Assembly: GCF_000444995.1 (NCBI RefSeq)
Contig: NC_022041.1
Location: 2,330,001-2,394,000 of the forward strand
Direction of reading: 5' to 3'
DNA length: 64,000 nucleotides
From: Paracoccus aminophilus JCM 7686
GTDB taxonomy: Bacteria > Pseudomonadota > Alphaproteobacteria > Rhodobacterales > Rhodobacteraceae
The first letter of the stretch is position 1, and the number at the start of each line of letters is the position of its first letter. Shown here in pieces: positions 32,983-58,875 of the stretch. The notes under the pieces were generated by a model. The model ran no database searches. It worked only from the letters and a program-made list of their open reading frames with translations, and was not told the DNA's origin. Both the position numbers and the translations under genes were made by a program.

Positions 32983-33093
32983 TGTAATTCGGGCGAAAGT
33001 TAGTGCCAAACGACGTATTTTATTCAATGAAATCAATGCCCACAAAAACTCTCAGAGGAAAGATAGGATCGAGTTCGGGGCAAAGTTGTTCCC
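32983..33093. repeat. Left end of the Tn7-like element with two repeats
   Basis: Repeats TTCGGGCGAAAGTTAGTGCC (32988-33007) and TTCGGGGCAAAGTTGTTCCC (33074-33093) are in the same orientation, 86 bases apart. Spaced repeats are typical of Tn7 left ends, where TnsB binds. The relic end at 28281 has the same spacing. Confidence 0.8.
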
Positions 33094-33118
33094 GTCCTTG
33101 GCGGTTTGCCAGAATCAA

Positions 33119-33142
33119 AAAGCCCGCGATATCGCGGGCTTG
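33119..33142 (-). terminator. Terminator of the tns operon
   Basis: A perfect palindrome AGCCCGCGATATCGCGGGCT (33121-33140) with A residues on the left (TTTTTG on the minus strand) lies just after the tniQ stop. It could also work from the other side (TTTTTCTTT at 33147 onward). Confidence 0.75.
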
Positions 33143-33168
33143 ATCGGTTTTTCTTTGGTTTTCGTGTC

Positions 33169-34665
33169 TCAGGCGGCCCGAATTTCCGTTGCCGCCTTCA
33201 AGCTTCGGACATCATCCAGACGCACCTTCAACGCGGCCAATCCTGAGAGTGACGGATCGCGCCATCCCTGGATCCGCCCTGTGAAAACTGCATCGACCAG
33301 GTCCGGGGTCATCATGCCGATGCGCTGACAGGCGACGGCAATCGAGACGAAATCGTCGCCAACATCCCCATCCAGGACATCAGCCCTCGAGACCTGATTC
33401 AGGAAGGCGTCGAGATGCCTTCTGGCAAAGACCAGCCGCCGAACGCTTCCTGCGCCAGCGGGTGGAAATAGCGGCATGATCATCCCTGCCCCGTAGAGCA
33501 TCTGGACCTGCCGTATGCTTGCGCCAAGATGATTGGCGACCTCCTCATAAGGGATCGCATGCGCGACATCCTTCTGCAGCTCTTCAACCTCGCCGACAGG
33601 AAAGGTCAGCAGGCCGGTCTCGGCATCGCTCGCCCCTTCCGGAGCAAGGCCCAGTTTTGCCAAAAGCCGTGTCAAGCGCTTACGATGGATGCCAAGGGTT
33701 TCGCCAAGGCTGACAACCGAATGCAGGCGGCGCTCCGTGACCTCTTCGCCAAGCAGGCGCTCGCCCTTTGCCATCGGGATGTGGGAAAGGATACGGTCAC
33801 GCAGCAGCGGTCGGATTGGCCCCGGATCGATCAGCTTCGCGCCCCCCTCGAGCCAGTCGTAAAGGCGGCCATAGACGGCAAGAGGGCCGGCCTGAACTGC
33901 CCGGGCCGAGGACCGGGCCTGGATTTCGTCAAGGGCTGCCATGACGCCGCCCTGCCCTTCGCGATAATAGGAAAACCCCCGCTCGACGGCATCCGACCTT
34001 TCCTGACGGGAGAGGCTTCGCAGACGGATCTGCTGGCCATGGCCAAGAACAGCGCCGATCATCTCCGAAGCTGCAACGACCTGTTCGATCGTGTGATCGG
34101 CCAGCCACGGATCATCCGCCGCACCCTCAAGCCGCGCCGAAAGCCAGGTCTGCCAATCCGGTGCAGAAAACGGCTCGGTCGTGTTCAGGGCCTCAAGGGC
34201 CGTTCTGCCTTCGATCACCTCGCGAAGGTCACAGACCTTCTCGCTGCCGGCAAGCTCCGCCAGCCGAACCCCATGAACTGCACATCCATCGACATGTTGA
34301 AAGCACCAGAGCAACCGATGCTTCCATGCCTCACGGGCGCCATCCTCCATAAGACATTGAGGGCAGAATTTGCGGACTTTGGTGGAGATGAAACCCGTGC
34401 TGATGTCCTCGCCCCTGAACCGGCCATATCGCGACAGAAGTTCTACGGTGCCACGAGACAGTTGCAACGGATCGGCGCCGACATCCGCGGCGAAGCTCTC
34501 GATGGCCTCGGGCTTGCCGGTCAGGAACCGGTCGCGGCCAAGATCAAGATCTTCGAGCAGGCGCCGGATCGTCATGCCAGTATGAACGAACGAGAGCCGG
34601 GCCGCATAGGACAGTGCCGTTTCGGAGGCTTCATAGGGCGAATTTGGCGAGATAACGGCCATCAT
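33169..34665 (-). CDS. tniQ: TniQ/TnsD-family target-selection protein
   Basis: 498 aa from the ATG overlapping the tnsC stop (ATGA). The N-terminal TniQ domain has a zinc finger: FCPQCLMEDG, then WCFQHVDGCAVHG. The long C-terminal region carries HTH-like stretches (SLGETLGIHRKRLTRLLAKL and EEVANHLGASIRQVQMLYGA), as in TnsD-type proteins that read a specific attachment site. It is the only TniQ in the element, so it should be what directs insertion beside the ETC complex I gene. It is the last gene of the operon, next to the left end. Confidence 0.9.
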   Translation of the reverse strand: MMAVISPNSPYEASETALSYAARLSFVHTGMTIRRLLEDLDLGRDRFLTGKPEAIESFAADVGADPLQLSRGTVELLSRYGRFRGEDISTGFISTKVRKFCPQCLMEDGAREAWKHRLLWCFQHVDGCAVHGVRLAELAGSEKVCDLREVIEGRTALEALNTTEPFSAPDWQTWLSARLEGAADDPWLADHTIEQVVAASEMIGAVLGHGQQIRLRSLSRQERSDAVERGFSYYREGQGGVMAALDEIQARSSARAVQAGPLAVYGRLYDWLEGGAKLIDPGPIRPLLRDRILSHIPMAKGERLLGEEVTERRLHSVVSLGETLGIHRKRLTRLLAKLGLAPEGASDAETGLLTFPVGEVEELQKDVAHAIPYEEVANHLGASIRQVQMLYGAGMIMPLFPPAGAGSVRRLVFARRHLDAFLNQVSRADVLDGDVGDDFVSIAVACQRIGMMTPDLVDAVFTGRIQGWRDPSLSGLAALKVRLDDVRSLKAATEIRAA

Positions 34666-35651
34666 GCCCAACCTGCGTCGACCAGAGACTTCTTGAGATC
34701 TGGCCAATGGATGTCGGCGAAAGGCCCGAGCCCATCATGCTCAGGGTGCTGCAGCTCCCATGTGCGGCGGGCGTGGTCCAGGGTCAGTTGGCTATCCTTG
34801 ACGGTGAGCGCCCGTCGCAGGCTGTCCTTGATCAGGGCAAGGCTCAGGCCCAAGCCGTCGTGAGATGCAAAGATCAAGCGTTCCGCAAAATGCGGATCGC
34901 CAGGCGGCAGAAGCCCGATATTCTTGCAGCATGCGGTCACGAACCTTGCGATATTGACCGCATCTTCGCTGGCCGTCCCGACTGGCCGCAACCACTGCCA
35001 TTTGAAGCGACGGTTGGTCTCCGGATCGGTCAGCAAACCCTCGCGCAGCTTAGGAATGCCCGAGACAATGACCGCAACGCCGCTTTCTTCCTGCATGAGA
35101 TTTTTCAGGGTCTGAAGCGCACCAACCAGATCCCGGCCAGCGCCCCCACGCAAGAGGTGATGGGCTTCGTCGATCCAGAGCAACGAGATTTTGCAAAGGA
35201 TCAAACGGTGGCGGACCATCTTCCAGAGCTCATGTGCTTTGGCCGAGCTCGCCACCTTTCCATATCCCGTTTTGGCCAGGATATCTGTGGCCAAGCTTTT
35301 GATCGTCGCCTCGGGCGGCACGTTAACCGCCAGGTAATTGCCGTCACTCTGAGGCGTTTGCTCGCGGAACCCCACCAGCTTTGCCAGGTTACGCCGGATC
35401 ATCGCCGACTTTCCATCGCCGGAACTGCCGATCACTGCAAAACCATTGGTCTCGCCTGTCAGGGGATCACGGATGGGCTCAGGGACAATCTTGCCCTCCG
35501 CATCAACTTTCATGATCTCACGCAGGCCTTCCTCGAAAGCCTCGTCACGGGCGTTTCGCAGGTAGCGATCATCGAGCCAGGCCAAACGTGAGGGGAGGTC
35601 CGTGAGGTCGGCCGAGGTCAACGCGGAAGAGGTTCGTTCTTTCAAAAGCAT
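34662..35651 (-). CDS. tnsC: TnsC/TniB-family AAA+ transposition regulator
   Basis: 329 aa. Walker A is FAVIGSSGDGKSAMI (GxxGxGKS), Walker B is ISLLWIDEAHHLL and the sensor region is VAVIVSGIPKL. Proteins of this family form ATP-dependent filaments on DNA that link the target selector to the transposase. It starts four bases after the tnsB stop and overlaps tniQ. Confidence 0.92.
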   Translation of the reverse strand: MLLKERTSSALTSADLTDLPSRLAWLDDRYLRNARDEAFEEGLREIMKVDAEGKIVPEPIRDPLTGETNGFAVIGSSGDGKSAMIRRNLAKLVGFREQTPQSDGNYLAVNVPPEATIKSLATDILAKTGYGKVASSAKAHELWKMVRHRLILCKISLLWIDEAHHLLRGGAGRDLVGALQTLKNLMQEESGVAVIVSGIPKLREGLLTDPETNRRFKWQWLRPVGTASEDAVNIARFVTACCKNIGLLPPGDPHFAERLIFASHDGLGLSLALIKDSLRRALTVKDSQLTLDHARRTWELQHPEHDGLGPFADIHWPDLKKSLVDAGWA

Positions 35652-35655
35652 GGGA

Positions 35656-37851
35656 TCAATCCATCAAATCATCAGTGTCGTCATCGCCCGGAACTTCCGG
35701 GTGACGGGGCGCGGAATTGTCAGCGTTGGGCTGAGAAACCGGCGGCGTCGATGATATCTCGCCTTGTGGCGGAATCTCTGTCTCAACCTCATCGGCGAAG
35801 AGATCACGAGGCTCGGCGCTGTTCATCCGCCGTGACGCCGTGTCCAGGTAGCGACGATGCCGCTCCTCTTCGAGGCGCAACTCATGCGCCGTCATGATGG
35901 TTGGCAGCAGGTTTGAGAGTTGCTTTCGCCGATAGGACTCGACATCCAGCGCATATTTGGCCCGGTTCGCAATCGCTTCATGCTCTCGATTGCGCTCGCG
36001 GCGGCTCATCAGCCATGCCGTGTGGTCAATATGCGTTTTGCCAATCCATTTGGGATCGGTGACCGGGACCGTCAGCCAACGATCCGGGCCGACTTTCACC
36101 TCAATGGCGCTGATATCACCCGGCCACCACGCGATTTCCGCTTCGCGCAGATTCAGCGCATGCAGTTCGTCGGACATGTAGTCGAGATGGAAAACCCGGA
36201 AGCCAGATTTCTGGTACTTCCGCTTGTCCTTGATTCCGAAGACGTGGCGCATCTCGCGACGCGACATCTCTGCGGGCCGCAAGTTGGCCGTCGCCTCCAT
36301 CCAGGCCTCATAAGGGGACATGCCATTCAGTCCGCGATGCGGCTCCAAATGATAGATGTCGACGATCCAGCGCGTGAGAAACCCGAGAAGATCTTCCAGC
36401 GTGACGGATGCGCGGTCGATGTGATTATTTTCACCGCGTTGCACCACGTCGGAAAAGGTGCGTCCGGAAAATCGCTGCAGCAGTTTGGAATGAATGGTGC
36501 GAAACAGCCGCTCAATGAAGCCCCGGAGCCAGGGTTTACCCGCAGGCGCACCGAAATTGGTGATCCCTGCCGCCGCCAATAGATCATAGGTCTCGTCGGC
36601 GACATAGGCCGCTCCCCGATCCATCGCGATCAGCCCCGGCCGCCCATACATCGGCCAGTCCATCTCGGCGATGCCATCGGTGATCGGCGTTTTCTCGGTG
36701 TAAATCATCTCCACGGTGTCGCGCATCAATCGCGCTGAGGCCTCTTTGCCGAGCTTGATCCCGACGATGCAGCGAGTGTGGACATCAATGGCCGCGGACA
36801 GCACGACCCGCTTCGCCGATCCATCCAGACCGAGGGCGCGTACGATGTCGTCGCTCAAAAGCTCGAGGATACCGGTTTTCCGAAACAGCACCATCAGATC
36901 CATGGTATATTCGTCAATCTCGACCCTCTCCAGGGCGCGGGTGGTCTCGATACCGATTCCAACCCCATGCATGTCGCGATAAGCGATTTTGAGACCACGG
37001 GTGCGGATCGCGTGATCGAGCGGGGCAATTTCGTTGATCGCGCTCCAAATCGCGTCATAGCCGGGAACTTCGAGGATGCGATCATCCCCGGTTCCAGGGA
37101 CGACTCCTTGATTATGGACATCGAATGCCGTCTGGACGCTGTCGACAATGCTGCTGATGCTCGGACGCTCCAGATCAAGTCGCATCTCGATGACCGACCA
37201 CATGAAAGCGCGCTCTTCGTCGAGCATCCGCGTGCCGCGGCGGCCCGAGGCCCGAAGATTGTCGAAAAGCGCGTCATCGCCGCCCCGCTTCCAGGCAAGG
37301 TACCAGCGCCGAATGATGGCCGCCGACTTCGGCGATGCCTTCAGGCGCACCCATTCGACCGATGCGCCGCCCCGCTTTGCCGCGTAACCGTTTTTCTGCA
37401 TCTGCGTGTGAAGATCGCGCGTTTCACCGGCGGCGAGGATCTCGTCCGCACAGCGTTCGAACTCGGTCCGGCTCGGGCGCATCGCACCGGATGAAACCAG
37501 AGCATCTGAAGCCAGCACATAGGACTTTCGCCATTCCATCCGTCGGATTTCCTCGGGGGAGCGATCAAACCGGCTCGGACGACCAACAGCATTCGCACTT
37601 CCCGGACGGCGTGTCACCGCCAGCCGCCCTTCCCGATCGGCTCGGGCGGCATCCTCATGGGTCAGTGCAGAAGAACGCGCCGCGTGGACCTCGCCAGTTT
37701 CCAAGTCGAAGAACTCTTTCCAGGCGATGAGAGATGCCTCCGGCCTCACCTCGAAAACGGTACCGCAGCGGCCATTGAAAATGAGCTCGGCCTCGCATTC
37801 CAACAAATGGTGCGTCGCCCGGGGCATGGGCATGCGTTCGAACATGGTCAT
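35656..37851 (-). CDS. tnsB: TnsB/TniA-family DDE transposase
   Basis: 731 aa from the ATG at 37851, which overlaps the tnsA stop (ATGA). An N-terminal HTH region is followed by an RNase H-like core: first Asp in RVEIDEYTMDLMVLF (about 313), second Asp in LIAMDRGAAYVADETYDLL (about 411) and Glu in PWLRGFIERLFRTIHSKLL (about 447). A Mu-type C-terminal beta domain and an acidic Pro-rich tail, likely contacting TnsC, complete it. It would bind the end repeats and cut the 3' ends. Confidence 0.93.
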   Translation of the reverse strand: MTMFERMPMPRATHHLLECEAELIFNGRCGTVFEVRPEASLIAWKEFFDLETGEVHAARSSALTHEDAARADREGRLAVTRRPGSANAVGRPSRFDRSPEEIRRMEWRKSYVLASDALVSSGAMRPSRTEFERCADEILAAGETRDLHTQMQKNGYAAKRGGASVEWVRLKASPKSAAIIRRWYLAWKRGGDDALFDNLRASGRRGTRMLDEERAFMWSVIEMRLDLERPSISSIVDSVQTAFDVHNQGVVPGTGDDRILEVPGYDAIWSAINEIAPLDHAIRTRGLKIAYRDMHGVGIGIETTRALERVEIDEYTMDLMVLFRKTGILELLSDDIVRALGLDGSAKRVVLSAAIDVHTRCIVGIKLGKEASARLMRDTVEMIYTEKTPITDGIAEMDWPMYGRPGLIAMDRGAAYVADETYDLLAAAGITNFGAPAGKPWLRGFIERLFRTIHSKLLQRFSGRTFSDVVQRGENNHIDRASVTLEDLLGFLTRWIVDIYHLEPHRGLNGMSPYEAWMEATANLRPAEMSRREMRHVFGIKDKRKYQKSGFRVFHLDYMSDELHALNLREAEIAWWPGDISAIEVKVGPDRWLTVPVTDPKWIGKTHIDHTAWLMSRRERNREHEAIANRAKYALDVESYRRKQLSNLLPTIMTAHELRLEEERHRRYLDTASRRMNSAEPRDLFADEVETEIPPQGEISSTPPVSQPNADNSAPRHPEVPGDDDTDDLMD

Positions 37852-38546
37852 TGCACCTGCCCCCGTTCCGCTGGCCAAACGACCGTGTCAAAGGTGATGC
37901 GTTGGCGGCGGTCGAATTGCAGAGCTTGTTGGGTGAGAGCGCGGAGCACCGCCGCGAAACCGCGATCGCCGAGACCGGTCTGCCGGACGATGTCGGAAAT
38001 CCGGCATGCCTCCATCATCGTTGGCAGAAAGCTCGCGAGGACGGCATCGCTCTCGGGATCCGGAAACCGCACCTCATGCATGAATTCGGCATTCGCGAGT
38101 TCAATCCGGTTGATGTTTTCTTCGGTGACGAGGCAAACACTGTCGACCAGTTTTCCTCTGGCGGCGACCGCCACTGCTCTCACCTGGGCGCGGAATTCTG
38201 GAGTTACGCGACACGACGGCTTTACGATAAGGCCAACACGATGACCCCCACGTTTGGTCACTCGAAAGTCGATGTAGTGCAGTGGATTCTGCTTGCCGAC
38301 CGGCAGACTCGGCAGAAAATATCTGACGCCTTCCAGCTGCTCTTCAACGTCGATCACATCAGGTCGGTAGATCGCGCAGATCGCGACCTTGTATTCGAGA
38401 TGGCTTGCATAGCCGAGGCATTGGCCGTTGCCGGGGCCGAAGACGAGCTGTCCGACTGCATGGCGATCGGCCTTGCGCGGTATGGCCCGCTTGGCACGGC
38501 TTCGCGCCGGCGCCGCCCATTGATAGGTGTTCATTCCTTCAAGCAT
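37848..38546 (-). CDS. tnsA: TnsA-like endonuclease subunit
   Basis: 232 aa. The PD-(D/E)xK-type pattern is ASHLEYKVAICAI (Glu), LHYIDFRVTKRGG (Asp) and VGLIVKPSCRV (Lys). The E-x-K of typical TnsA is replaced by V-K, so the catalytic set is slightly unusual. The C-terminal part is the TnsB-contact region. TnsA cuts the 5' ends and makes transposition cut-and-paste. AAGGAG lies seven bases before the ATG at 38546. A 425-base gap with an AT-rich stretch upstream probably holds the operon promoter. Confidence 0.82.
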   Translation of the reverse strand: MLEGMNTYQWAAPARSRAKRAIPRKADRHAVGQLVFGPGNGQCLGYASHLEYKVAICAIYRPDVIDVEEQLEGVRYFLPSLPVGKQNPLHYIDFRVTKRGGHRVGLIVKPSCRVTPEFRAQVRAVAVAARGKLVDSVCLVTEENINRIELANAEFMHEVRFPDPESDAVLASFLPTMMEACRISDIVRQTGLGDRGFAAVLRALTQQALQFDRRQRITFDTVVWPAERGQVQ

Positions 38547-38971: not shown

Positions 38972-40075
38972 TCAGTTAAGCATCGGGGCCGTTTCGAGGA
39001 TTTCGGCCAGGTCGAGCATCCTGTTGATCATGCGCAGATTGACGGACTGACGAGCTCTTTCGCGCTCAATGATCACCTCGAGGATAGCTTCGATCGAAGG
39101 CGCTGAAAGGCTGCGTCGTTTACCCTGACGACGCGCGAAGCTGTGGAGGTCATCGCGCATCACCTGACCGACGGTCACCACCCTGCACCGGCTCAGGAAG
39201 GGCTCCGGCAGCGACGTCACTGTATTCGTGGTAAAAATCCAGCTGATCCAGCTCATATCAAACACCAGCTGGTAATATGGGCAACTCCATTGGGCAGCCG
39301 ATAGAGGCTCGAGTAGCGGAAGAAGTGCATCGGTGATGCTCGGAACCGTGTCGCGCATCGAACTCGCACGTCCGGCTTTTTCAACTTCGTCGATGATGAT
39401 AAAAGGATTGGCGATCCGCTCTTGCAGGATGAGGCTCAGGGGTCGCCCCGGTGTGGCGCTGCCCCATCCCTTCTGGACACCGCCGACGCTAAATCCCGCG
39501 GACTCTCCGGTGGCATCGATCGCGATGGAAGGCGCGCCAAGCAGTTCTGCAAGCCTGCGTGCCCAAAAAGATTTTCCGACGCCGGGCGGGCCATTCAGGA
39601 TGACGGGCCGACAGCGAAACCCGATCTCCTTTCGCTTTTGCGAAAGCAGCATATCGCGCATGATCAATGTGCTCGCTGCTGACATCCAGGGCATTTCCGC
39701 ATGAAGGGCAGCCCCGATCCGATGTGCCTCCTCCTCCCGCGGAGGCGGGATGACCTCGGCCCCCTCCCGCAGACGTAACAGAATGTCGCGGTCCGCATCC
39801 TTCATGCGGTAAAAAGGCGATGACTGCTCATGCCATCTGGCGATGCGCGTGGCCCGCCGGTGGATCTCGTGGGTCTGATCATAGGACAGCCGAAGATCAG
39901 GGTAGAATTTGTCAAAGCTGCGCTGATCAATGCTGCCGTCGATCGACCGTGGTATGGCCATGTCCGAGCGACGCGCCAGTCGGATCTTGGCGTTCCGGAG
40001 AAAACGGTCGGCGATTGCCTCCTGCGATCGCATTGGGTCGGGAAGCTGGCTTTGAATGAAGCGGATGGAAGGCAT
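38972..40075 (-). CDS. Lon-like AAA+ ATPase without protease domain
   Basis: 367 aa. Walker A is ILNGPPGVGKSFWARRLAE, Walker B is FIIIDEVEKAGRASS (IDEVEK as in Lon), sensor 1 is WIFTTNTVTSLPEPF and the arginine finger region is PFLSRCRVVTVG. An N-terminal helical region of about 150 residues is not recognised, and the Ser-Lys protease domain of Lon is absent. It lies upstream of tnsA on the same strand. It could remodel transposition complexes as ClpX does for Mu, or act in cargo defence; this is inference. Confidence 0.8.
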   Translation of the reverse strand: MPSIRFIQSQLPDPMRSQEAIADRFLRNAKIRLARRSDMAIPRSIDGSIDQRSFDKFYPDLRLSYDQTHEIHRRATRIARWHEQSSPFYRMKDADRDILLRLREGAEVIPPPREEEAHRIGAALHAEMPWMSAASTLIMRDMLLSQKRKEIGFRCRPVILNGPPGVGKSFWARRLAELLGAPSIAIDATGESAGFSVGGVQKGWGSATPGRPLSLILQERIANPFIIIDEVEKAGRASSMRDTVPSITDALLPLLEPLSAAQWSCPYYQLVFDMSWISWIFTTNTVTSLPEPFLSRCRVVTVGQVMRDDLHSFARRQGKRRSLSAPSIEAILEVIIERERARQSVNLRMINRMLDLAEILETAPMLN

Positions 40076-40224
40076 GGTTTCACCCTTCTCAATGCTGTAA
40101 AAACAAGAGGCGTCGTTGGCCCTCGCGCCGCCGCCTCATCGACTGTGACGCCTGGAGGGGCGCTGCCGAAGATCTGGTGCAAATGTCAGGAACTGATGAA
40201 CGTTTTTGCTCAGTCCGGCCGCGA

Positions 40225-40695
40225 TCAGCGATCTGCTGATCCGCAACCGTCCTGTTGACCGCAGGTCTGTTCGCGAACGAGAGCGACAAAATCCGCAATC
40301 AGCCGCTGAGCGATGTCCAGATCTCCGATCGGATAGGCGCCGGGAAACTCGAACATAAGGTCTAAATTCGCCGGGTGCATTTCGCTCAATTCCGCGGCGA
40401 TGGCATCCCGCAGTCGAAAAAAGGGGCGTCCCAGCCGGTACCAACGGCTGCAACTCCTGGCCCAGCCTTCCTCGATATTCAGCGCCACCACCGGCGACGT
40501 AATGATATCGTCGCCGCCGAGAATGGGATGATCCCGGACCTGCCCCCACAGGCACGGCGCACCAAGATGATGCAAGACCGGCAGCCACAAATCGATCTCG
40601 GGCGCTCGTGCCAGTTCTTGGGCGGTTGGGCCGATTTCGACAGCCTTAATTGCCGCCCGCGCTTTCTGAAGATGCGAAAAGAAATCTTGAGACAT
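40225..40695 (-). CDS. Small protein upstream of the Lon-like ATPase
   Basis: 156 aa, helical, with conserved-looking blocks (HLGAPCLWGQVRDHPILGGD, VVALNIEEGWARSCSRWYRL, LIADFVALVREQ). It may belong to a DUF known from Rhodobacterales accessory regions, but I cannot name it with certainty. It is same-strand and 149 bases upstream of the ATPase gene, so the two may act as a pair. An AT-rich block (40790-40900) upstream is a likely promoter. Confidence 0.6.
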   Translation of the reverse strand: MSQDFFSHLQKARAAIKAVEIGPTAQELARAPEIDLWLPVLHHLGAPCLWGQVRDHPILGGDDIITSPVVALNIEEGWARSCSRWYRLGRPFFRLRDAIAAELSEMHPANLDLMFEFPGAYPIGDLDIAQRLIADFVALVREQTCGQQDGCGSADR

Positions 40696-41447
40696 CGATA
40701 TTCTCCATCGCGAACCGGCACGATGGCAAAACCATCAGAGACCGGTAGGGTAAAAATTCAGCCTGTCGGATTGTTTTAGGGCTCCAACATATCTCAAACA
40801 GGACGGTGAGTCAAATTACCGTATATAATCAGATATTTAAGCGTTTTCGCACCTGTCATTATGGGCAGAGTCCAAGTATTGACGAGAACCATTTTCATTT
40901 GAATACAAGAGAGATACTGAGAGTTGCCTTACAGGCAGTCGGCTCGCAAGCGACCGGATTCTAAGGTTTTTCTCGAGCGGATGCCTTGTCGCTGAAATGG
41001 ACACATAGAATACAAAAGCGCCCTAGATGAAGCGATGATTCGAAGGCGAACGAGCCGGACGAAAAGGGCAGCACTCGACGTAATCAGGCAAGGAGATGTC
41101 CACTATGCGGGACGAAGCGGCCATTCGCTGCACTTGCATCCTGACTGCTTCGATCCACCCGATGCGCAGTAAGCCGCTTTTGGCAGGCGGCCGAAGCGAG
41201 GTACTTCAAGCTGTCGCTGCAGCAGCACGCGCCGAGCTCGACGAGCACAACGGCACTGCCGTTTCCATTGACAAGCCTAAAGCGGCATCAGGCAGTGGGG
41301 TATAGGATCATGCAGTGCGCCGATCATGCCCCTGCAGCAGCCACCTTTACCGAAAACAACCCAATTACGGCGATGGCGGCCCGCTTGAACCGGCTTGCGC
41401 TGGTAGCGGCCAGAAAGATCACGATCCGCTTCAGCGCCGACGCTTCC
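40696..41447. other. Gap between transposition genes and cargo
   Basis: No convincing gene. Left part AT-rich (CCGTATATAATCAGATATTTA, 40820-40840); right part has short frames without family features, probably eroded. Confidence 0.4.
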
Positions 41448-42680
41448 TCAATGACCGCTGAGCACCAGCGTCTTGACCGGCAGGGCCACAGCTTGGATCC
41501 GCAGAAGCATTGCATGAACCATAGCTGTCGCATCGACCGCGTGAAGGAAAATCGCTTGGCCGGGGCCTGTGTTCGGGTCGCTTAGACGATCATGGTTATT
41601 AGTATAGGCATTGGCAATGCAACTGCTGCCGCGCGGAATATCGGCGATCTGACCGGCATAAAGTGGCTCGAGCGTGGCCGTGATCGTTCCCGGCTTTGCC
41701 AATTGCTGGGCATCCACCAGCTGATCTGATGCGCGCACTTGCCCCGAGGCAATGACATCTTGCACCTCGGTCAAGACCATCGGGATGATTTGATAGGGTT
41801 TAGAGGCACATGTGACCTCAGCAATCATACCAGGTTTCAGGACTTGCGCCTCGACTTGATTGAAGCCCACCACCAGCGTCTCATCGCCCGCATCGTCGGG
41901 AACAAGGATCCCGGCAGGACGCATCAATGGGTTGATCACCTCGCCCGGGCGCAACGTGAATTGCTGCAGAGTCCCCGCGACACCTGCATATACCGTGGTG
42001 CGATCCACCGCGACCTGCGCTTCGCGGATCTTGGCCTTTGCGCTTTCCAGTTCGGCGGGTAGAAGCGATCCAAGCTTTGTTTGCAATGTGCGCTTACTGG
42101 CCAGCGCGGCATCCAACTCGCCCACCCGGGCATCTACGACCGCTTGCAGCCGGTTCAGTTCGGTGCGCGTAGTGGTCGAGGCGTTACGGTTGCGCAGTTC
42201 CTGATAGGTCTGCAAATCGTCCCACGCCAGATCATGTGCGGCCCGCGCCTGTGCGATACGCCCGTCGATCCCTTCAAGTTCGGTTTGCGACACCTTGGCC
42301 GAAGCCTCTAATTCGGCAAGGCTTTTTTCAGCCGTATCCAGAGCCGCAGCCTGCCGCGAGTCCTCCATCCTAAACAGCGCCTGCCCGGCTTCCACATGTT
42401 GAAAGCGCGTCACATAGACCTCTTCCACGCGACCGATCATCTCGGGTTGGATGGTGATGGTGCGAAACGCCTTGGTCACATTGGTCGTCGAGGGGTGATA
42501 ATAAAAGATCATCGTGATCAAGCTGACGGTCAACAAGATGCAGGCCGTAATGCCCCACCTCAGCTCATACCAGACCGAGTAAAGATTAATCTCGTTGCCA
42601 AGGCGCTTGCCCTGAAAAAAGCGCCGAAAAAGATAGTCCGGAAAAATCGTGACCATCAAGCATAGAAGAAACTCAAGCAT
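41448..42680 (-). CDS. HlyD-type membrane fusion protein (YiaV/YibH-like)
   Basis: 410 aa from the ATG at 42680. Two N-terminal hydrophobic segments (MLEFLLCLMVTIFPDYLF and ITACILLTVSLITMIFYY) precede a biotinyl-lipoyl half motif (IGRVEEVYVTRFQHVEAGQA), a long coiled coil (about 120-225) and a beta-barrel. It is the periplasmic adaptor type. It overlaps the DUF3302 gene by 8 bases, the same pairing as yiaW-yiaV and yibI-yibH in E. coli. No pump gene is adjacent. Confidence 0.85.
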   Translation of the reverse strand: MLEFLLCLMVTIFPDYLFRRFFQGKRLGNEINLYSVWYELRWGITACILLTVSLITMIFYYHPSTTNVTKAFRTITIQPEMIGRVEEVYVTRFQHVEAGQALFRMEDSRQAAALDTAEKSLAELEASAKVSQTELEGIDGRIAQARAAHDLAWDDLQTYQELRNRNASTTTRTELNRLQAVVDARVGELDAALASKRTLQTKLGSLLPAELESAKAKIREAQVAVDRTTVYAGVAGTLQQFTLRPGEVINPLMRPAGILVPDDAGDETLVVGFNQVEAQVLKPGMIAEVTCASKPYQIIPMVLTEVQDVIASGQVRASDQLVDAQQLAKPGTITATLEPLYAGQIADIPRGSSCIANAYTNNHDRLSDPNTGPGQAIFLHAVDATAMVHAMLLRIQAVALPVKTLVLSGH

Positions 42681-43173: not shown

Positions 43174-43203
43174 GGCTCTGCGATCTGAATAGCCCCGAGT
43201 TTC

Positions 43204-44348: not shown

Positions 44349-44405
44349 GGCCTCCTTGCCTCAAAATTAGCAAAGAAGGCGTCCACGAAACATGGGGCTA
44401 TTCAG

Positions 44406-48504: not shown

Positions 48505-48565
48505 TGCGGTTCCTTTCATCAAAGACGCGAGCCCATTCTCATCACACCAAGATTTGGCGTTGACC

Positions 48566-49180: not shown

Positions 49181-49184
49181 GAAA

Positions 49185-50864: not shown

Positions 50865-50932
50865 CTGCTGTTTCCTGTCTGGTCTATGTCACAATCTGCA
50901 AGGAGAACGCTTCGCGCCGGAAACGCTGACGA

Positions 50933-51934
50933 TTACTGCTCTGGCCGCGATGCAAAAAGACCCATACCAAGCTTCTGCGAAAGATACTTCACAGCAAGCT
51001 GGCCTTTGACGCTGTTTCCCGCCGCATCCAATCGCGGCCCAAAAGTCCCAATCGCGCCTTTACCCGGCGCCACAGCGACAATTCCACCACCAATTCCACT
51101 TTTTCCAGGAAGACCAACCTCATAGAGCCAATCTCCAGAGGTCTCATACATTCCGGCCGTCGCCATTACGGCGAGAGTATAGTGACATATGCTTGCCGGA
51201 ATCACGCGCGCTCTGGTGATCGGATTAACGCCACCATCCGCGAGAGTTGCTCCCATGACAGCCAAATCGAAAGCAGAGACATCCAGAGCGCACTGCCGTG
51301 TATAAAGGTCGACGGCGTCGATAGGGTCGCAATAAATGCAATCTCGAGACCTCAACATATTTGCGATCGCGCGGTTGCGATAGTTCGTTTCCTGCGCCGA
51401 ACGATAAATCGCAGAATTCACCTGAAGATCGCGCCCTGCAAACCGCGACATTCCCTCGTGAATAAAGCTCCATTTCCGAGCTGGGTTGTCCCCGGGGACG
51501 AGGCTCGTTGTGGCAATAGCTCCAGAATTTACCATCGGGTTCGTTCGGCCATCGCGACTCGCCTCAACTCCGGTGAGCGAGTTGAACGGCAAACCGGTGC
51601 TATTGGCTCCAATGAGATTCAGGGCTTGTCTGTGCCCCAGATGCGCGCAGACAAGCGCAAAGAGAAAAGGCTTCGAAACGCTCATGATCGAAAAATGATC
51701 ATCCGCGTTACCGCATTTTATTGAATCACCGTTTACGCCGCAAACCGAAATTCCGAAAAGATCGGGATCTACTGCCGCGAGAGCGGGATAGACGTTTGAG
51801 ATGTCTCCATCGCGATCGCTCGCGAAACGTAAATAGGCATCCTTTACCAAATCATGAATCTGATCCTTGAAAGGAAGATGTCCAGTTGAAATAAAAGAGT
51901 GATCATCTGAGAGTGTCAGGTCTTCAAGCTTCAT
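50933..51934 (-). CDS. glsA: Glutaminase A
   Basis: 333 aa from the ATG at 51934. Serine-dependent beta-lactamase-fold glutaminase: catalytic SxxK in FSIMSVSKPFLFALV, GVEASRDGRTNPMVNSGAI, and Tyr motif SGDWLYEVGLPGKSGIGGGI. It hydrolyses glutamine to glutamate and ammonia, which consumes protons in E. coli acid resistance. An upstream start at 52021 would add a hydrophobic segment and cannot be excluded. Confidence 0.9.
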   Translation of the reverse strand: MKLEDLTLSDDHSFISTGHLPFKDQIHDLVKDAYLRFASDRDGDISNVYPALAAVDPDLFGISVCGVNGDSIKCGNADDHFSIMSVSKPFLFALVCAHLGHRQALNLIGANSTGLPFNSLTGVEASRDGRTNPMVNSGAIATTSLVPGDNPARKWSFIHEGMSRFAGRDLQVNSAIYRSAQETNYRNRAIANMLRSRDCIYCDPIDAVDLYTRQCALDVSAFDLAVMGATLADGGVNPITRARVIPASICHYTLAVMATAGMYETSGDWLYEVGLPGKSGIGGGIVAVAPGKGAIGTFGPRLDAAGNSVKGQLAVKYLSQKLGMGLFASRPEQ

Positions 51935-52422
51935 CAGCGTCACCCATGTAAGGTGCCAAGAGCTATAGAAACCAATCAACAACAGGAGAAGCGACGGCGA
52001 TCGCGCCATCAACGGCGCCACACCTCCGGCGAGTGTCGCCAGAGTCGGCTAGTGCGTTAGGCGCAAAAGTGGAAATACAACGCTCGCCCACAATCCACAG
52101 TAATATATGAAATTTTGAAAAGCAAACTTGATTTTGATGCGGGCTGCGAGCCTGAAATTTCGGAAGAATCCGTAAGATTGACGGAGTAAAGACAAATTGC
52201 TCTGAAATCGGGCAGGCCTTCTTGCGCAGGTGATGCCGAGACCATCAATCCTGCCTTCGGCTTCCCAGTCTTGCGCCGTCAATAAGAGGATCGTGGCCGC
52301 GGCCTGCGCGATCACGTCCACGGAGTCGCGCGAATGGGTTTTGCTATCGCTCGGCTGCCCAGGATGGCATGACTGACGAGCTCTTTCTTTCCGTCGAGAA
52401 AGATAGAACTCGCATGATCATA
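51935..52422. other. Intergenic region, possible remnants
   Basis: No intact gene. A short frame (VDVIAQAAATILLLTAQDWE, minus strand near 52320) looks protein-like but is truncated. Confidence 0.35.
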
Positions 52423-53760
52423 CTAATCGTGCTGGATCAAGTAGTTGGCCACCGCCATGTACGCGGGCAGAGATGTCGGATCGATCTCACCATTCGACGC
52501 GGTCGGGAATGAGGCGAAGCGCACGAGGACCATCCCGGCGACCGGATCGATATAGATCGTCTGCCCATGCACGCCACGCGCCGCGTAAGCGCCATGCGCG
52601 TTGTTGAAACTCCACCATTGGCTCTTATAGCTGCCGTTCGGGATCGTCGGGTAACCGCCGAACTTGCTCTGATCGCCACCCGCAGCAATCTTTTCGACCA
52701 CCTCGCTGGGAAACAAGCGCCGGCCATTCAGCTCGCCCTTGTCGAGCATGAGCTGTCCAAGCCGCGCCAAATCTCGCAAGCCAAGGCTAAGCCCGCCGCC
52801 CGCGAAGGGCACCCCTTTGCCGTCCACAGTCTGATAGGCGTCCTGTTCGGCCCCCATCGGCTGCCAGAGACGCTCGGAGGCAAGTGCGGCGACAGACTTT
52901 TGCGAAACCCGGCTGATGATCCAGCCGAGCATGTCAGAGTTTACCGTTTTATAATGGAAGGCTTCGCCATGGCTGCCCTCGGGTTGAACCTGTGCGAGAT
53001 ATTCCCAATACCCGTCTGGGCCAAGGTAGCCTTCAGGCTTCGGGAGCGGACTGGCAGCGGCCGAATATGTCCAGATGTCTGCGTTCGGACTTGCATAATC
53101 CTCGGAGAACTTGATCCCTGTGGTCATATCCATGACCTGCCTGACGGTCGCGCTTCCGAAAGCGCCCGCTTTGACCTCTGGAATGATTTCGGCGACGTGC
53201 ACCCTATCGTCCAGCTTCCCCTCGGCGACGAGGATCTCGGCCAGAAGTCCGGTAACCGATTTGGTCATCGACATGGCCGCATGCTGCCCGGTCTCATCAA
53301 GGCATCCGAAATAGCGTTCGTAGACGACTTTGCCTTTGTGCAGGATCAAAATACCGTCCGTATAATTGGCGTAGAGCGACGCCTCCCAGCTCATTTCGGC
53401 TCCGCCGCCCAGAGGTGTGAAGGTCAGAGAATCGATCTCGTTGCGCAGATCCGCGAAAGTTGCCGGTTCGGGATATGAGAGCGGGATTGGCGCACCGAGG
53501 CCTCGGCTGATCTGCTTTGTCGGCAGGAATTCTCGCAGATGGCAAACCGACCACCGCAGCTTTGGAAAGCTGAAGTAAACCGAGTCGGGTTGCGTTATGA
53601 TCTTGTCTGGCGCGGGCGGAAAGCCCTGCATCCAACCCATGACACGCGGGTCGGAAGCCTGCGCCGAGAGCGGGGTTGTGTCAGCCAAAGCGGGACCTCC
53701 GATCAATGCCAGAAGCAAGCTTGCGGTCAGAAACTTTGCGCGAACCGATGGTGTCGCCAA
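52423..53760 (-). CDS. Secreted serine hydrolase, beta-lactamase class C fold
   Basis: 445 aa from a TTG at 53760, chosen because AAGGA lies before it and a signal peptide follows (LTASLLLALIGGPALADTT). SxxK is HAAMSMTKSVTGLLAEIL, YxN is HYKTVNSDMLGW, and a C-terminal HGQ motif (ARGVHGQTIYIDP) replaces KTG, as in 6-aminohexanoate-dimer hydrolase (NylB)-like esterases. The substrate is unknown; probably periplasmic. A longer frame from 53967 has an Arg-rich, unlikely N-terminus. Confidence 0.82.
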   Translation of the reverse strand: MATPSVRAKFLTASLLLALIGGPALADTTPLSAQASDPRVMGWMQGFPPAPDKIITQPDSVYFSFPKLRWSVCHLREFLPTKQISRGLGAPIPLSYPEPATFADLRNEIDSLTFTPLGGGAEMSWEASLYANYTDGILILHKGKVVYERYFGCLDETGQHAAMSMTKSVTGLLAEILVAEGKLDDRVHVAEIIPEVKAGAFGSATVRQVMDMTTGIKFSEDYASPNADIWTYSAAASPLPKPEGYLGPDGYWEYLAQVQPEGSHGEAFHYKTVNSDMLGWIISRVSQKSVAALASERLWQPMGAEQDAYQTVDGKGVPFAGGGLSLGLRDLARLGQLMLDKGELNGRRLFPSEVVEKIAAGGDQSKFGGYPTIPNGSYKSQWWSFNNAHGAYAARGVHGQTIYIDPVAGMVLVRFASFPTASNGEIDPTSLPAYMAVANYLIQHD

Positions 53761-54189
53761 GCTGGATCCTTCCCAACGGGTGAAGCACAGGTCATCACCC
53801 TGACTGTGGGCGAAATGGACCCGATGCGTCAATGGCGGCAATCGAGGCGAGACCACCCGCCGACAAGGCCGATCTTGCCCGCGAGGTTCTGCGCTGCGGT
53901 TGACCGAAGCCAGAAGCGCCTGTGTCCGCGTGGCGAGGCTAAAGCGGCGGGCAGTGCGGCGGGTCATCAGCTTTTATGGGGCGGCCCAGAAACAATCTCT
54001 CTCTGAACAGCTCCTACCGGATCGCCCGCCAGACTGCGCGCGTCCGGTCTATTCGCCCAAGGGTTGCGTGTCGGACAGAGTCGCTGCAAGCTTGCGGCAG
54101 AGCGGGGAATCCAATTGCGCCATCAAGCGTCCATCGCCCGACAGCCGTGACCTCTTCCGCGTCGAGATGCCTCAGACAGGAGACTGAAC
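53761..54189. other. Divergent upstream region of hydrolase and oleate hydratase genes
   Basis: No gene supported. Expected to hold promoters for both directions; no clear operator seen. Confidence 0.4.
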
Positions 54190-56154
54190 ATGAGCCCCAA
54201 GACCTCCAAACCCTTCCACGTCGAGAACGACACGACCGCCGGATATTGGTCAAATCGACCAGAAAATACCCTGCCTGTGCCCGATATGATGGGCGCTTAT
54301 ATGCGCAACCACCCCTATCCCGGCAACCAGGTCGAGGGTCGCAAGGCCTGGATCATTGGCAGCGGTATCGCCGGGCTGGCAGCGGCGTTCTACCTGATCC
54401 GTGATGGCGGGATGAAAGGGCAAGACATCACCATTCTGGATGCGCTGGATGTCACGGGCGGCTCGCTCGACGGGGCTGGCAATCCCGAGGATGGCTATAT
54501 CATCCGCGGCGGCCGCGAGATGAACTTTAATTACGACAACCTTTGGGACATGTTCCAGGACGTGCAGGCGCTGGAGCTGCCCGAGGGCTACAGCGTGCTC
54601 GACGAGTATCGCCAACTGAACGATGCCGATCCCAACTGGTCAAAGTCTCGGCTGATGCACAATCAGGGCGAGATTCGCGATTTCTCAACCTTCGGCCTGA
54701 CCAAGCCGCAGCAATGGGAGCTGATCCGCCTGCTCTTGAAGCGCAAAGAGGATCTCGATGATCTGACCATCGAGGATTATTTCAGCCCCGGCTTCCTGCA
54801 GTCGAACTTTTGGTTCCTGTGGCGCTCGATGTTCGCCTTTGAGAACTGGCAGAGCTTGCTGGAGATGAAGCTTTATACCCACCGCTTTCTCGATTCCATC
54901 GACGGGTTTGCGGATATGTCCTGCCTCGTTTTCCCGAAGTATAATCAGCATGATACCTTCGTTAAGCCGCTGGTCGACCACCTAAAGAAGCTCGGCGTTC
55001 AGGTCCAGTTCGCGACCCGTGTCTCTGATTTGGAAATGACCGAAGACGCAGGCAAGCGCAGTGTGACGGGCATTCTGGCCAGCGTGAACGGTCAGGAACA
55101 CCGCATCCCAGTCGATGAAAAGGATGTGGTCTTTGCGCTGACCGGCTCGATGACCGAGGGCACCGCCTATGGCGATATGGATCATGCCCCCGTGATGGAG
55201 CGCGGGCGCTCGGATCCGGGACCAGACAGTGATTGGGCTTTGTGGCAAAACCTCGCCGCGAAATCGCCGATCTTTGGCAATCCCAAGAAGTTCTATGGCG
55301 ATATCGACAAGTCGATGTGGGAATCCGGCACGCTGACGTGCAAGCCCTCGCCCCTGACTGACCGGCTGACAGAGCTGTCGGTCAACGACCCCTATTCCGG
55401 CAAGACCGTGACCGGCGGCATCATTACCTTCACCGACTCGAATTGGGTGATGAGCGTGACCTGTAACCGCCAGCCGCATTTCCTCGGCCAGCCCAAGGAT
55501 GTTCTGGTGCTCTGGGTCTATGCGCTGCTGATGGACAAGGATGGCAACAAGGTCAAAAAGCCCATGCCCGCCTGCACCGGGCGCGAGATTTTGGCCGAGC
55601 TGTGCCATCATTTGGGCATTCCCGACGATCAATTCGAGGCCGTCGCCGCGAAGACCAAGGTACGGTTGGCGTTGATGCCCTATATTACCTCGATGTTCAT
55701 GCCGCGTGCCAAAGGTGACCGTCCCCATGTCGTGCCCGAGGGCTGCACGAACCTCGCGCTGATGGGCCAGTTCGTCGAGACGGCGAATGATATCGTCTTC
55801 ACCATGGATAGCTCGATCCGCACGGCGCGCATTGGCGTCTATACGCTGTTGGGGCTGCGCAAGCAGGTGCCCGATATCAGCCCGGTGCAATATGATATCC
55901 GCACCTTGATCAAGGCCGCCCGCACGGTGAACAACAACCAGCCCTTCCCGGGTGAACGCCTGCTGCATCGTCTCTTGGGAAAGACCTACTATGCCCATAT
56001 CCTGCCGCCGCTGCCCGATCGCACCCAAACCACCCGCGACGCTGCCGAGACCGAACTGAAGGCGTTTCTCGGTACTGGCGGCACTGCTCTGGCGGCCGTG
56101 GGCGGTTGGCTGCAAAGGGTTCGCGAGGACCTCAAAGAGAGGACCCGCAAGTGA
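54190..56154 (+). CDS. ohyA: Oleate hydratase
   Basis: 654 aa, the 67-kDa myosin-cross-reactive antigen family. The FAD-binding start is [20 protein letters not shown], with the conserved [17 protein letters not shown] (active-site Glu/Met region) and [20 protein letters not shown] later. It adds water across the cis-9 double bond of unsaturated fatty acids, often to detoxify them. Cytoplasmic or membrane-associated. The GGAGACTGAAC region before the ATG supports the start. Confidence 0.95.
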
Positions 56155-56421
56155 AACGACGGCACAGATATTAGCGTTCTCCCACCCGCCCTGCATCTGT
56201 TGTCGGGAGACAGTTTGACCGCAGGCGGCGTCGCTGTAGATAGGCGCTGCCCCTCTCCCCGTCTATTTGGGCATCATCGCTGACCGGATTGGGGCCAGTC
56301 CTTCGATCTGTTGATGATCGGCGGCACCGCGCGCCATGCCGGTCAATCCACCGATGACGGGCGGCAGCACCGGCTCAGGCCGGGAGGCAACCGAGCGCAG
56401 GTCTTAGTCACATTGCTCCTC

Positions 56422-56730
56422 TCACGAGCCCGACCACGCCGCGGCGGCCCAGATGATCAGGGCCAGCGCGCTGAATGCCGCGCCGAGCGCCGAGACGCCC
56501 GCCCAGCCCGCATGGGCAAAGGCGGTCGTCGCTCCGATGGCGCCGATCGCGCTGCCAAGCGAATAGAACGCCATGTAGCCGCCGACCAGACGACTGCGCG
56601 CTTGGGGGTGGCGCTCGAAAATGATGCTTTGATTGGTGACGTGAACCGCTTGCACCGCCAGATCAAGCAGCACGACGCCGATCAGCAGCGCGGGCATGAT
56701 CTGCTGTTCCGTGAAACGGCTCTTTCTCAT
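56422..56730 (-). pseudogene. Chimeric remnant: IS3 OrfA start fused to MFS C-terminus
   Basis: The frame opens MRKSRFTEQQIM, the typical first residues of an IS3-family OrfA, then switches near 56695 to an MFS C-terminal part (VQAVHVTNQSIIFERHPQAR, RLVGGYMAFYSLGSAIGAIG). Neither gene is complete, so it records an IS insertion into an MFS gene followed by deletion. Expression is possible but function unlikely. Confidence 0.65.
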
Positions 56731-56805
56731 TCGAATCTTCTCAGCTGCCGGCTCACGAGAAAACTCTGCTTATGCAGCCCCTTAACCTTGGGGAGGATTA
56801 CCCTT

Positions 56806-57381
56806 TTATGACCCGTAACGCACTGTTATAATAAAAAACTCTGCTGCGAACGGCGAGCAACAAAACTCATTTGCAAGGCTCTCGATGATGCTCTGAAACT
56901 GATCGTTGAATTTCGCCGCATTCACGTCGATAGACAGTAGTTTCAAGAAATCCTTAAGCTCCGCGTCGCTGACGCCAAGCTCTTCATGCTTTTTGACCGT
57001 CCCATCTTTTGATGCAGTTGTGAGAAAATTGGTCTTTAGGAAGTCGATATCGAACGGGATATCTAACTTATCCTGCCCCGACGAAAAATGACCGCTGAGC
57101 TGGTACTGGATCGCTGGCCGGCCAGCCGTGAGGCCCTCTTTATAATGCGCAAGCATGAACATGATGGCGGGCTTGATAACCGAATGATTATATTCGGACT
57201 TCTCATAATATTTGCACTGGACGGCAGTCGTTTCGGTAGCGGTGCGGACGTCGATATCCTCAATGCATTCGATTGCCACCGAGTCATTTCCATCGGATAG
57301 CCCCAGGATGCTGAGGATTGAGCGATCGAATTGATAGAAATAGCCAGCAATTGTTGAAACTGCGCTCCGATCAACCACCAC
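56806..57381 (-). pseudogene. N-terminal nuclease-like domain, truncated defence-type gene
   Basis: 191 aa, GTG start. GYFYQFDRSILSILGL, then AIECIEDIDVRTATETTAVQ and CKYYEKSEY give an E...D...QxK pattern (Q-C-K) of restriction-type nucleases such as the DUF4297/Cap4 group. The frame ends FFIITVRYGS at the edge of the IS3 remnant, where the effector or sensor C-terminus would be expected. AT-richer than the surroundings. Confidence 0.5.
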
Positions 57382-57472
57382 TACCCCCTACGGTGATCTG
57401 CCACGCGGGCAGCGCGTCCACATTCGTTTGTCATCGGAACCCCATTTTCCAGTTCTCCAGTTTCTACAATGG

Positions 57473-57931
57473 TCAGGCGTTCGCGCGGGCCGGCCAAGCA
57501 AGGGCTGCCTGCAGCACAGCGTGGGCTTCCTTTATAAGCGTCACGTCACGCTCCCACTGGCCATCCGGCCCACCGCGGAACTTCTCTCCATGCAGGTAGC
57601 TATTGCGCACTCGGCAAACGCCTTGGATAATTAGCTCGTGCACGTTCGTTAAGGGCGTGGGTATTCTAGGCGCCCATACAAGGTCGTTCATCAGCCGACG
57701 CGGCGGCTCGCCAATCAGCGTCTTAGCGATGCTGTTATCGACGACTGCAGCGAAGAACTCTGGCCCGAGATCGCGGGCGAACGCATCCCAATCGGCCTCA
57801 GCAGTCTCCCTGTTTCCCCGTATCAAGCCGGATCGCTTCAAAGCGTATTCTGCATTGCCGAACTCGTTCGCGAAGGCCTGTGCGGCGTCGTGGGGGTTTT
57901 GCACCGAATTCCTCCAATCCTGATCCGTCAC
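57473..57931 (-). CDS. Hypothetical protein with HEPN-type RxxxxH motif
   Basis: 152 aa, mainly helical. CRVRNSYLHGEKF contains R-N-x-x-x-H, the catalytic motif of HEPN ribonucleases, in the right place near the C-terminal helix, followed by a terminal helix (RDVTLIKEAHAVLQAALAW). HEPN proteins act in toxin-antitoxin, abortive infection and phage defence. No nucleotidyltransferase partner is adjacent. Upstream gene debris is defence-like. Confidence 0.55.
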   Translation of the reverse strand: MTDQDWRNSVQNPHDAAQAFANEFGNAEYALKRSGLIRGNRETAEADWDAFARDLGPEFFAAVVDNSIAKTLIGEPPRRLMNDLVWAPRIPTPLTNVHELIIQGVCRVRNSYLHGEKFRGGPDGQWERDVTLIKEAHAVLQAALAWPARANA

Positions 57932-58629
57932 CCAACTAAAAGTTGTGTGACGTTATACGCTTTAACGACATTCTGGGTGACTTCCTTGGGGCGCACAGCC
58001 GTCGGCGTGCCGAATTGTGTGCGAATGCACCTGATTGATGTAAAGGGAGCTGTCACCCGTTCTCGATCTGAAGAGATTGATTTGGCGGGGGATAGGGCGG
58101 CAACTTGGATTTCTCACCGGAACGAAAGGCAGTGGTTCTGACGAAGATGCTGCCGCCGAACAACATGCCGCTTGGGCAACTCGCAAGGGATTAAGGTATT
58201 TCCTACGCTAGGCTGGAAAAATGGTGGGCGGATAGCGTGGGCGAAGGTGAAGCGCTGCCTGATGCCCATTTTACACCGGAAGGCTGAACTTTCTCGGGCA
58301 AGGCTGCCTGCGGTGATCGCGATCGCATAGGCACCGCCAACGCCACTCGCCTTTAGATTCCCCGCCTGCTGGACCTGAGCCATTCAGGTTTCGCTGCGCT
58401 AGGGACGAATGTCCGCTAACCCGAATTGCCGCGGCTGCCATGCCACGCCGCCGTCAGGCGGCTCTCCACCCTTCACGACGATCACCCGTCTAGCAGAGCG
58501 GCTATGGCTCTTCCCAGAAAACCTGATCATCATGCCGTTATCTCAGCCCCACGCGCAGCAATCTCCGTCATTGCCATGCGATCAGAGCCGAGTGTGATCC
58601 ATCCAGACGCGCGACTGCAGATCAATCGG
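57932..58629. other. Eroded DNA near the right end
   Basis: No intact gene on either strand. Short frames show no family features. Leads into the MYG1 fragment. Confidence 0.4.
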
Positions 58630-58707
58630 GCATCCGGGACACGCCGGGTCAGGATGACGCTTGAGAAAAGTCATCCGCATGAAACCGCCGTTATGGGTAC
58701 CGAGATC
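58630..58707 (-). pseudogene. Fragment of the MYG1 gene 5' end
   Basis: GCATCCGGGA ... GCCGGGTCAGGAT ... TCATCCGC ... CCGCCGTTATGGGT matches 28021-28099 with small gaps. On the minus strand it encodes THNGGF, then loses frame. It lies beside the right end, as MYG1 does at 28161. Confidence 0.75.
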
Positions 58708-58744
58708 ACCGAGCGGCATGATCGAAGTCACTAGATGCTTGGTC

Positions 58745-58875
58745 CGCGTCGCGCCTCAAAAAGAAAAACGCTGGGATCGTTTCCCGATCCCAGCGAATTC
58801 AACTACTTGCAAAAACTATGCCCCGAAATCGGACAAAACGACCCCGATTGGGGACTAACTTTCGCCCGATTTACA
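58745..58875. repeat. Right end of the Tn7-like element with three adjacent repeats
   Basis: Read inward on the minus strand, the repeats are AATCGGGCGAAAGTTAGTCC (58852-58871), AATCGGGGTCGTTTTGTCC (58831-58849) and GATTTCGGGGCATAGTTTTT (58811-58830). They are nearly contiguous, as TnsB sites are in Tn7 right ends. Confidence 0.85.
58757..58795 (-). terminator. Intrinsic terminator inside the right end
   Basis: A perfect 11-base stem CGCTGGGATCG / CGATCCCAGCG with a 5-base loop; on the minus strand it is followed by TTTTTCTTTTTG. It would stop transcripts coming from the ETC complex I gene. Confidence 0.85.

Follow-up and report, generated by a model that had tools for sequence, protein, structure and literature searches.

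A complete Tn7-like transposon stacked on older transposon ends next to an NDUFS4-like gene in Paracoccus aminophilus

The region downstream of an NDUFS4-like gene, encoding a subunit of complex I, was analysed in Paracoccus aminophilus JCM 7686. The window, that is, the whole stretch of DNA considered here, comprises 64,000 nucleotides (contig NC_022041.1 of assembly GCF_000444995.1, positions 2,330,001 to 2,394,000), and all coordinates given below refer to it. Immediately past the stop codon of this gene lies a Tn7-like transposon of 25,893 bp (32983-58875), called element 1, with inverted TGT...ACA ends. On its far side it is followed by older transposon ends and by a gene of the MYG1 family. 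The features that define element 1 are the following, LE and RE standing for left and right end.

32978-32982: CAGGC, left copy of the 5-bp target duplication, read in the sequence.
32983-33140, plus strand: LE1, left end of element 1, with TnsB-site-like repeats at 32989 and 33075.
33169-34707, minus strand: tniQ, a TnsD-like target selector of 512 amino acids (PF06527, E 2e-20), with an N-terminal TniQ part and two predicted MerR-like DNA-binding domains at the C-terminus.
34662-35651, minus strand: tnsC, AAA+ regulator (PF05621/PF13401, TniB/AAA).
35656-37878, minus strand: tnsB, DDE transposase (rve match below cut-off; solved TnsB chains, E 1.7e-27).
37848-38546, minus strand: tnsA, a diverged endonuclease, assigned by its predicted fold and its E/D/K triad.
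58542-58670, minus strand: degenerate fragment of the 5' part of MYG1, beside RE1 and within element 1 (a 75% repeat of 27969-28061; tblastn 53% over 43 amino acids).
58745-58875, minus strand: RE1, right end of element 1 on the NDUFS4 side, with TnsB-site-like repeats 6 and 49 nt inside the terminus and an internal hairpin.
58876-58880: CAGGC, right copy of the 5-bp target duplication, likewise read in the sequence.
58881-59234, minus strand: NDUFS4-like complex I subunit gene (PF04800, E 1.8e-34), the 3' end of which is the putative attachment site.

LE1 reads TGTAATTCGGGCGAAAGTTA from position 32983, and RE1 reads TGTAAATCGGGCGAAAGTTA from position 58875 inward on the minus strand; these terminal arms of 28 nt are 89% complementary. 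With up to 3 mismatches, the 20-mer of the end occurs four times in the window, compared with 0.02 occurrences expected in shuffled sequences. Over the whole genome two matches to the left end and three to the right end were obtained, every one of them at the NDUFS4-MYG1 locus, and a looser limit added a single 28-nt match, LE1 itself. Two strong TnsB-site-like repeats are present at each end, as judged by pattern matching. A preliminary description of this DNA, made from the sequence alone, had proposed the same boundaries, inverted ends and CAGGC repeats, all of which were confirmed by reading the sequence and by the shuffle test.

The four tns genes form the leftward operon tnsA-tnsB-tnsC-tniQ, an assignment already made in the preliminary description and upheld here by Pfam, by solved TnsB chains and by the fold of TnsA. 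The matches of tniQ and tnsC exceed the Pfam cut-offs. The rve match of tnsB falls under its own (27.3 bits versus 32.6), and its product matches solved TnsB chains at the E-value given above. For tnsA, no Pfam or NCBIfam match was found at E 0.001, and its profile retrieved no solved relative by sequence; a weak Pfam match to TFIIB_C_2 (E 0.21) was taken as chance. Among the candidates proposed by Foldseek, to which the structural alignments (VIA-align) were limited, the best match of its predicted fold is the TnsA of Tn7, and the E/D/K triad is retained in all nine aligned sequences. The predicted structure of TniQ consists of a TniQ core followed by two MerR-like domains, and its profile gave only weak matches to solved structures (E 0.015 or worse), mostly to TniQ. 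The conservation of the triad, together with the resemblance of the model to Tn7 TnsA, favours cut-and-paste transposition, a mechanism that had first been deduced from the family and that the complete set of TnsABC and TniQ also supports. It is rather unlikely that element 1 is instead an inactive fossil, retained through useful cargo. The MYG1 fragment and an IS3 pair within it do point to decay or rearrangement of the cargo, and in Paracoccus cavernae (genome G022, 79% complete) tnsB, tnsC and tniQ are each in two pieces and tnsA was not found in a 20-kb stretch, a state in which assembly errors may have a part. Against this, the four tns genes of element 1 are all open reading frames (ORFs), the triad is kept, and both the ends and the duplication are intact.

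Element 1 does not lie in plain chromosomal DNA, as shown by the features found on its left.

27180-28112, minus strand: MYG1-family gene (PF03690), taken as the ancestral chromosomal neighbour beyond the stack from the NDUFS4-MYG1 adjacency in relatives.
28159-28274, minus strand: RE3, apparently the oldest right end, adjoining MYG1 and 76% identical to RE1.
28281-28441, plus strand: LE2, a diverged left end, about 69% identical to LE1.
28281-32975: remnant unit extending from LE2 to RE2, with two Hint-domain ORFs (30086-31210 and 31461-32660) and ends without a common 5-bp flank.
32845-32975, minus strand: RE2, an older right end of 131 nt, 98% identical to RE1 and located 7 bp outside LE1.

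The end sequence of element 1 is repeated exactly at 32956-32975, inside RE2, a copy that the preliminary description did not mention. Since RE2 lies only 7 bp beyond LE1, the left flank of element 1 is another transposon end. LE2 and RE3 are separated by 6 bp, and no tns gene was found in the remnant unit. A tniQ remnant suspected by eye behind LE2 was rejected, as blastn backs only a 162-bp end and tblastn gave nothing convincing. Because LE2 and RE2 share no common flank, the 4.7-kb unit between them is probably the remnant of more than one element. When the junctions are read towards NDUFS4, whose stop codon is TGA, those of element 1 are TGA-GCCTG followed by RE1 at one end and LE1 followed by GCCTG at the other. 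RE2 is preceded by GCCTGTA, with a 5-bp flank CTGTA in which TGTA corresponds to the first four bases of a right end; this junction fits an insertion into TGAGCC followed by TGTAAATC, a state that persists in P. cavernae. LE2 is followed by GAGCT and then by RE3, which fits the state of genome G113, TGAGCT followed by TGTAAATC. The locus can thus be read as the outcome of three or more insertions in succession, each of which would have landed between the NDUFS4 stop codon and the right end already present, or at most 4 bp inside that end.

Alternatively, homologous recombination or tandem duplication between the repeated ends, and not separate insertions at one site, could be the main source of the stack, an explanation that appears improbable. 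It would account for the near identity of the direct repeats RE1 and RE2 and for the mismatched flanks of LE2 and RE2, and it finds some support in the identity between inner and outer right ends, which amounts to 70/71 over the stretch compared in G328. The corresponding figure is 92/95 in the window, but 43/52 in locus L198. However, the duplication flanking element 1 is perfect, every junction fits an insertion into a state seen in another species (G022-like or G113-like), and G328, G518 and L198 likewise combine a perfect duplication with an older right end immediately beyond the left end. Successive insertions remain the preferred origin of the stack.

The original state of the interval can be approached through relatives. 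MYG1 is present in 34 of the 125 genomes of the genus (E 1e-10), in many of them directly after NDUFS4. Some of these NDUFS4-MYG1 intervals contain no end (G042, G045, G016, G068, G033, G005, G034, G047 and G046, with G106 doubtful) and others contain a right end only (G113, G091, G009, G052, G018 and G027). As this adjacency exists with and without ends, MYG1 was taken as the original neighbour of NDUFS4, and the region from about 28.1 to 58.9 kb as an insert between the two genes. The idea that MYG1, beside RE3, is cargo was ruled out on the same grounds. On the other side of NDUFS4, a 405-residue ORF is followed by uvrB (60648-62861). According to the preliminary description, a related genome lacking the insertion should hold a single CAGGC directly after the complex I gene. 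The CAGGC junctions are real, but the site already held an older right end 7 bp away. A simple empty site in relatives was not borne out either, since the end-free NDUFS4-MYG1 intervals carry other sequence after the stop codon, and no close relative with the exact pre-insertion state was found. G018 was discarded as an empty site, its interval containing a solo right end of another type.

The search for relatives of TniQ covered 394 genomes at the level of the family (E 1e-50), 390 at that of the order (E 1e-70) and 125 within the genus (E 1e-20), sets that overlap and in which few TniQ candidates were scored per genome. A match of at least 39% identity over about 300 residues or more was obtained in 22 genomes, the window's own included (G000, G022, G087, G018, G088, G328, G655, G443, G626, G130, G199, G607, G689, G383, G518, G562, G691, G534, G444, G311, G725 and G258; the matches of G311, G725 and G258 are partial only). 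In all 22 a transposon end is located 3-7 bp past the NDUFS4 stop codon. No end follows NDUFS4 in any of the four genomes whose full-length TniQ matches reach 34-36% (G334, G679, G656 and G675), a difference with a Fisher p of 6.7e-5 for an identity cut chosen after seeing the data. The end of G607 has inner repeats of another sequence, and the terminus in G655 is TATAAATC. G073, in which only a 167-residue TniQ piece was found (53%), has an end too; at lower identity, an end-like sequence is present in G386 (30%) and absent from G147 (31%). The named relatives (41 loci, one of which, from Paenibacillus, is a weak match) include Loktanella, Pacificibacter, Thalassovita, Sulfitobacter, Frigidibacter and Falsirhodobacter.

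The physical link between tniQ and NDUFS4 was also considered. In 11 of the 22 genomes tniQ is downstream of NDUFS4 on the same contig and strand, and six more are tied to it by equal 5-bp flanks. Five show no such link (G199, G691, G725, G018 and G088); in G018 the tns genes are on a contig other than that of NDUFS4, which is followed there by the solo end and then by MYG1. Both ends were read by eye, then checked by script, for 20 elements. The 5-bp flanks are identical in 14 of them, match at four of five positions in one and differ in five (G311, G655, G022, G199 and G607), while about 0.02 perfect cases among 20 would be expected by chance (1 in 1024 each). These flanks support the earlier view that the 5-bp duplication and the end architecture are of Tn7 type. 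The orientation is fixed, with the right end nearest to the attachment gene. Outside the 22 genomes, at locus L203 of Mangrovicoccus ximenensis (11422-11660), the left end faces NDUFS4 in the opposite orientation, possibly as an inverted insertion.

The same association is seen in a plasmid collection, where TniQ matches of at least 40% were found in three records, all of them closed Thioclava replicons. NDUFS4 is located 14-59 kb upstream of tniQ on the same strand in all three, although only 22 of the 72,556 records have an NDUFS4 match at E 1e-20. Four of five Thioclava records were examined for an end, and it is present 3 bp past the stop codon in all of them, these three replicons and another that lacks a TniQ of this level; one of these ends has unlike inner repeats. 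In Thioclava sp. Guangxiensis p2 (L213 and L216), a DUF6880 gene comes after the NDUFS4-proximal end and again after the far left end, GAGGG stands beside both ends, and the inner repeats of the right end are unlike. Taken together, the genomic associations suggest that this Tn7-like lineage uses NDUFS4 as its attachment gene.

Right ends are also found alone. The stretch after NDUFS4 was examined in 122 of the 125 genomes of the genus (G099 and G114 have no NDUFS4 match and G121 a distant one only), and with a strict pattern a right end was detected in 20 of them; about five further intervals look by eye like degenerate ends. Among these 20, a TniQ of at least 45% is present in five (G000, G022, G087, G018 and G088) and a fragment in G073. 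The remaining 14, two of which are incomplete (G103, 71%; G091, 84%), have no matching TniQ or fragment, and some hold distant TniQs. It is scarcely credible that the right-end sequence beside NDUFS4 belongs natively to the intergenic region, for instance as a terminator, and merely resembles a transposon end: several copies do lack adjoining transposase genes and the RE1 hairpin does have a T run, but by the strict pattern the sequence is missing from 102 of the 122 genomes, end-free NDUFS4-MYG1 intervals exist, end-bearing intervals show no excess of terminator-like hairpins (24 of 35, against 20.2 expected from shuffles), and the pairing of right and left ends as inverted repeats with flank duplications contradicts it. 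The related idea that right ends supply a terminator replacing that of NDUFS4 is unsupported as a general rule, such hairpins being found in 20 of 33 end-free intervals against 8.4 expected.

With a probability of roughly 0.9, element 1 is a Tn7-like transposon of the cut-and-paste kind, the single TniQ of which most likely binds the 3' coding end of NDUFS4 and directs TnsABC past the stop codon, and it is the newest of a stack covering the remnants of at least two earlier insertions. The proposed binding is based on the genomic association and on the predicted DNA-binding domains. The C-terminal MerR-like domains of TniQ would recognise the conserved end of the gene, and TnsC would act as a bridge. 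TnsA and TnsB would cut and join the DNA with a 5-bp stagger yielding the duplication. The element would be inserted a few bp past the stop codon with its right end towards the gene, and later elements would land between NDUFS4 and the previous right end. As the binding site would lie within the gene and stay intact after each insertion, the same site could be used repeatedly.

In the text of PMC11406308, Tn7-like elements are defined by TnsB and TnsC plus TnsA and/or TniQ, a gene set that element 1 possesses together with the 5-bp duplication and the TGT/ACA ends. With prototypic Tn7, which inserts TnsABCD-dependently at glmS, it shares TnsA, TnsB, TnsC and TniQ/TnsD, the 5-bp duplication, a right end towards the attachment gene and a site at the 3' end of a conserved gene (PMC11406308). 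It differs from it by its position at NDUFS4, a few bp past the stop codon, instead of glmS, by its one TniQ, and by a tns operon that abuts the left end and reads outward, the cargo lying between the right end and tnsA. Tn7 itself has TGT...ACA ends, and its layout differs from this arrangement of tns genes and cargo. Among the ORFs scanned, small ones excluded, Pfam gave no TnsE, the protein of a second pathway in prototypic Tn7, no cas gene was found, and no CRISPR-like repeat family was found at 20000-64000; a CRISPR-guided element is therefore unsupported. Compared with the type I-F3 CRISPR-associated transposons Tn6677 and PseCAST, the TniQ of element 1 is longer and has extra C-terminal domains. 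Element 1 resembles the loci with a single large TniQ or TnsD, 2,905 of which are counted in the survey of Faure 2023 (PMC10293859). The portions of that survey that were covered name no NDUFS4 site, and its main text does not contain the word NADH. The attachment sites named in the text and table of PMC11406308 that were covered are glmS, yhiN, comM, parE, guaC, yciA, ffs, rsmJ and tRNA genes, without NDUFS4, and the text portions of PMC8649781 and PMC12452197 that were covered contain no NDUFS4 site. No Tn7-like element at NDUFS4 was thus found in the literature searched, supplements excluded, and an earlier description is possible. The class is known; the NDUFS4 site, its TniQ lineage and the record of solo ends appear new within that literature. 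These results would extend the short list of safe sites used by Tn7-type elements by one attachment gene, whose junction is defined in many genera. They would also provide a TniQ family with a specificity that follows NDUFS4, which is useful for understanding how TniQ/TnsD proteins read DNA and for site-specific insertion tools in alphaproteobacteria.

Stacked and solo ends constitute a natural record of how Tn7-like elements handle target immunity and loss. The piling up of Tn7 relatives at one site into islands has already been described for glmS. In 10 of the 36 named loci that remain when five with TniQ below 30% are left out, an automatic count, which overlooks some left ends, gave a second right end no more than about 12 bp beyond the left end. 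Insertion of further copies of Tn7 is hindered in the neighbourhood of a resident element or of its ends (PMC11406308, section 2.8; PMC12452197, in the portions covered). The stacks suggest an immunity that is weak or evaded, or whose effect gene conversion has later blurred. Tentatively, a Tn7 lineage spread over the Rhodobacterales may home to NDUFS4 while ignoring or escaping target immunity, its new copies entering within a few bp of, or inside, near-identical older right ends, and its lost elements leaving solo right ends. If true, the interval after NDUFS4 would be a stratified record of past invasions, comparable to solo long terminal repeats. At locus L151 (G607), the left end past tniQ is followed by two more right-end-like sequences, slightly more than 100 bp apart, as if solo ends had accumulated.

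The cargo of element 1 is as follows.

38972-57931: AAA ATPase, DUF6634, HlyD-like protein, IS3 pair, Hint protein, helix-turn-helix protein, OmpA, DUF308, major facilitator superfamily (MFS) protein, glutaminase, beta-lactamase-fold hydrolase, oleate hydratase and DUF4297-like fragment.

Within it, a block at 47866-52021 with DUF308 (HdeD-like), OmpA/glycine zipper, MFS transporter and glutaminase genes might, from its families alone, resemble an acid-stress set. Three Hint-domain (PF13403) proteins are encoded at the locus, one in the cargo (45052-46209) and two as similar tandem copies, about 85% alike at the protein level, in the remnant unit (30086-32660). The MYG1 piece beside RE1 seems, as judged by eye, to have a similar counterpart in P. 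cavernae, and from these two pieces it is possible that host DNA was captured at the NDUFS4 site in the past by this lineage of elements. Finally, a 191-residue piece at 56806-57381 corresponds to the N-terminal half of a defence-related DUF4297 model (PADLOC E 9.5e-77, positions 2-182 of 404) and is possibly a truncated gene.

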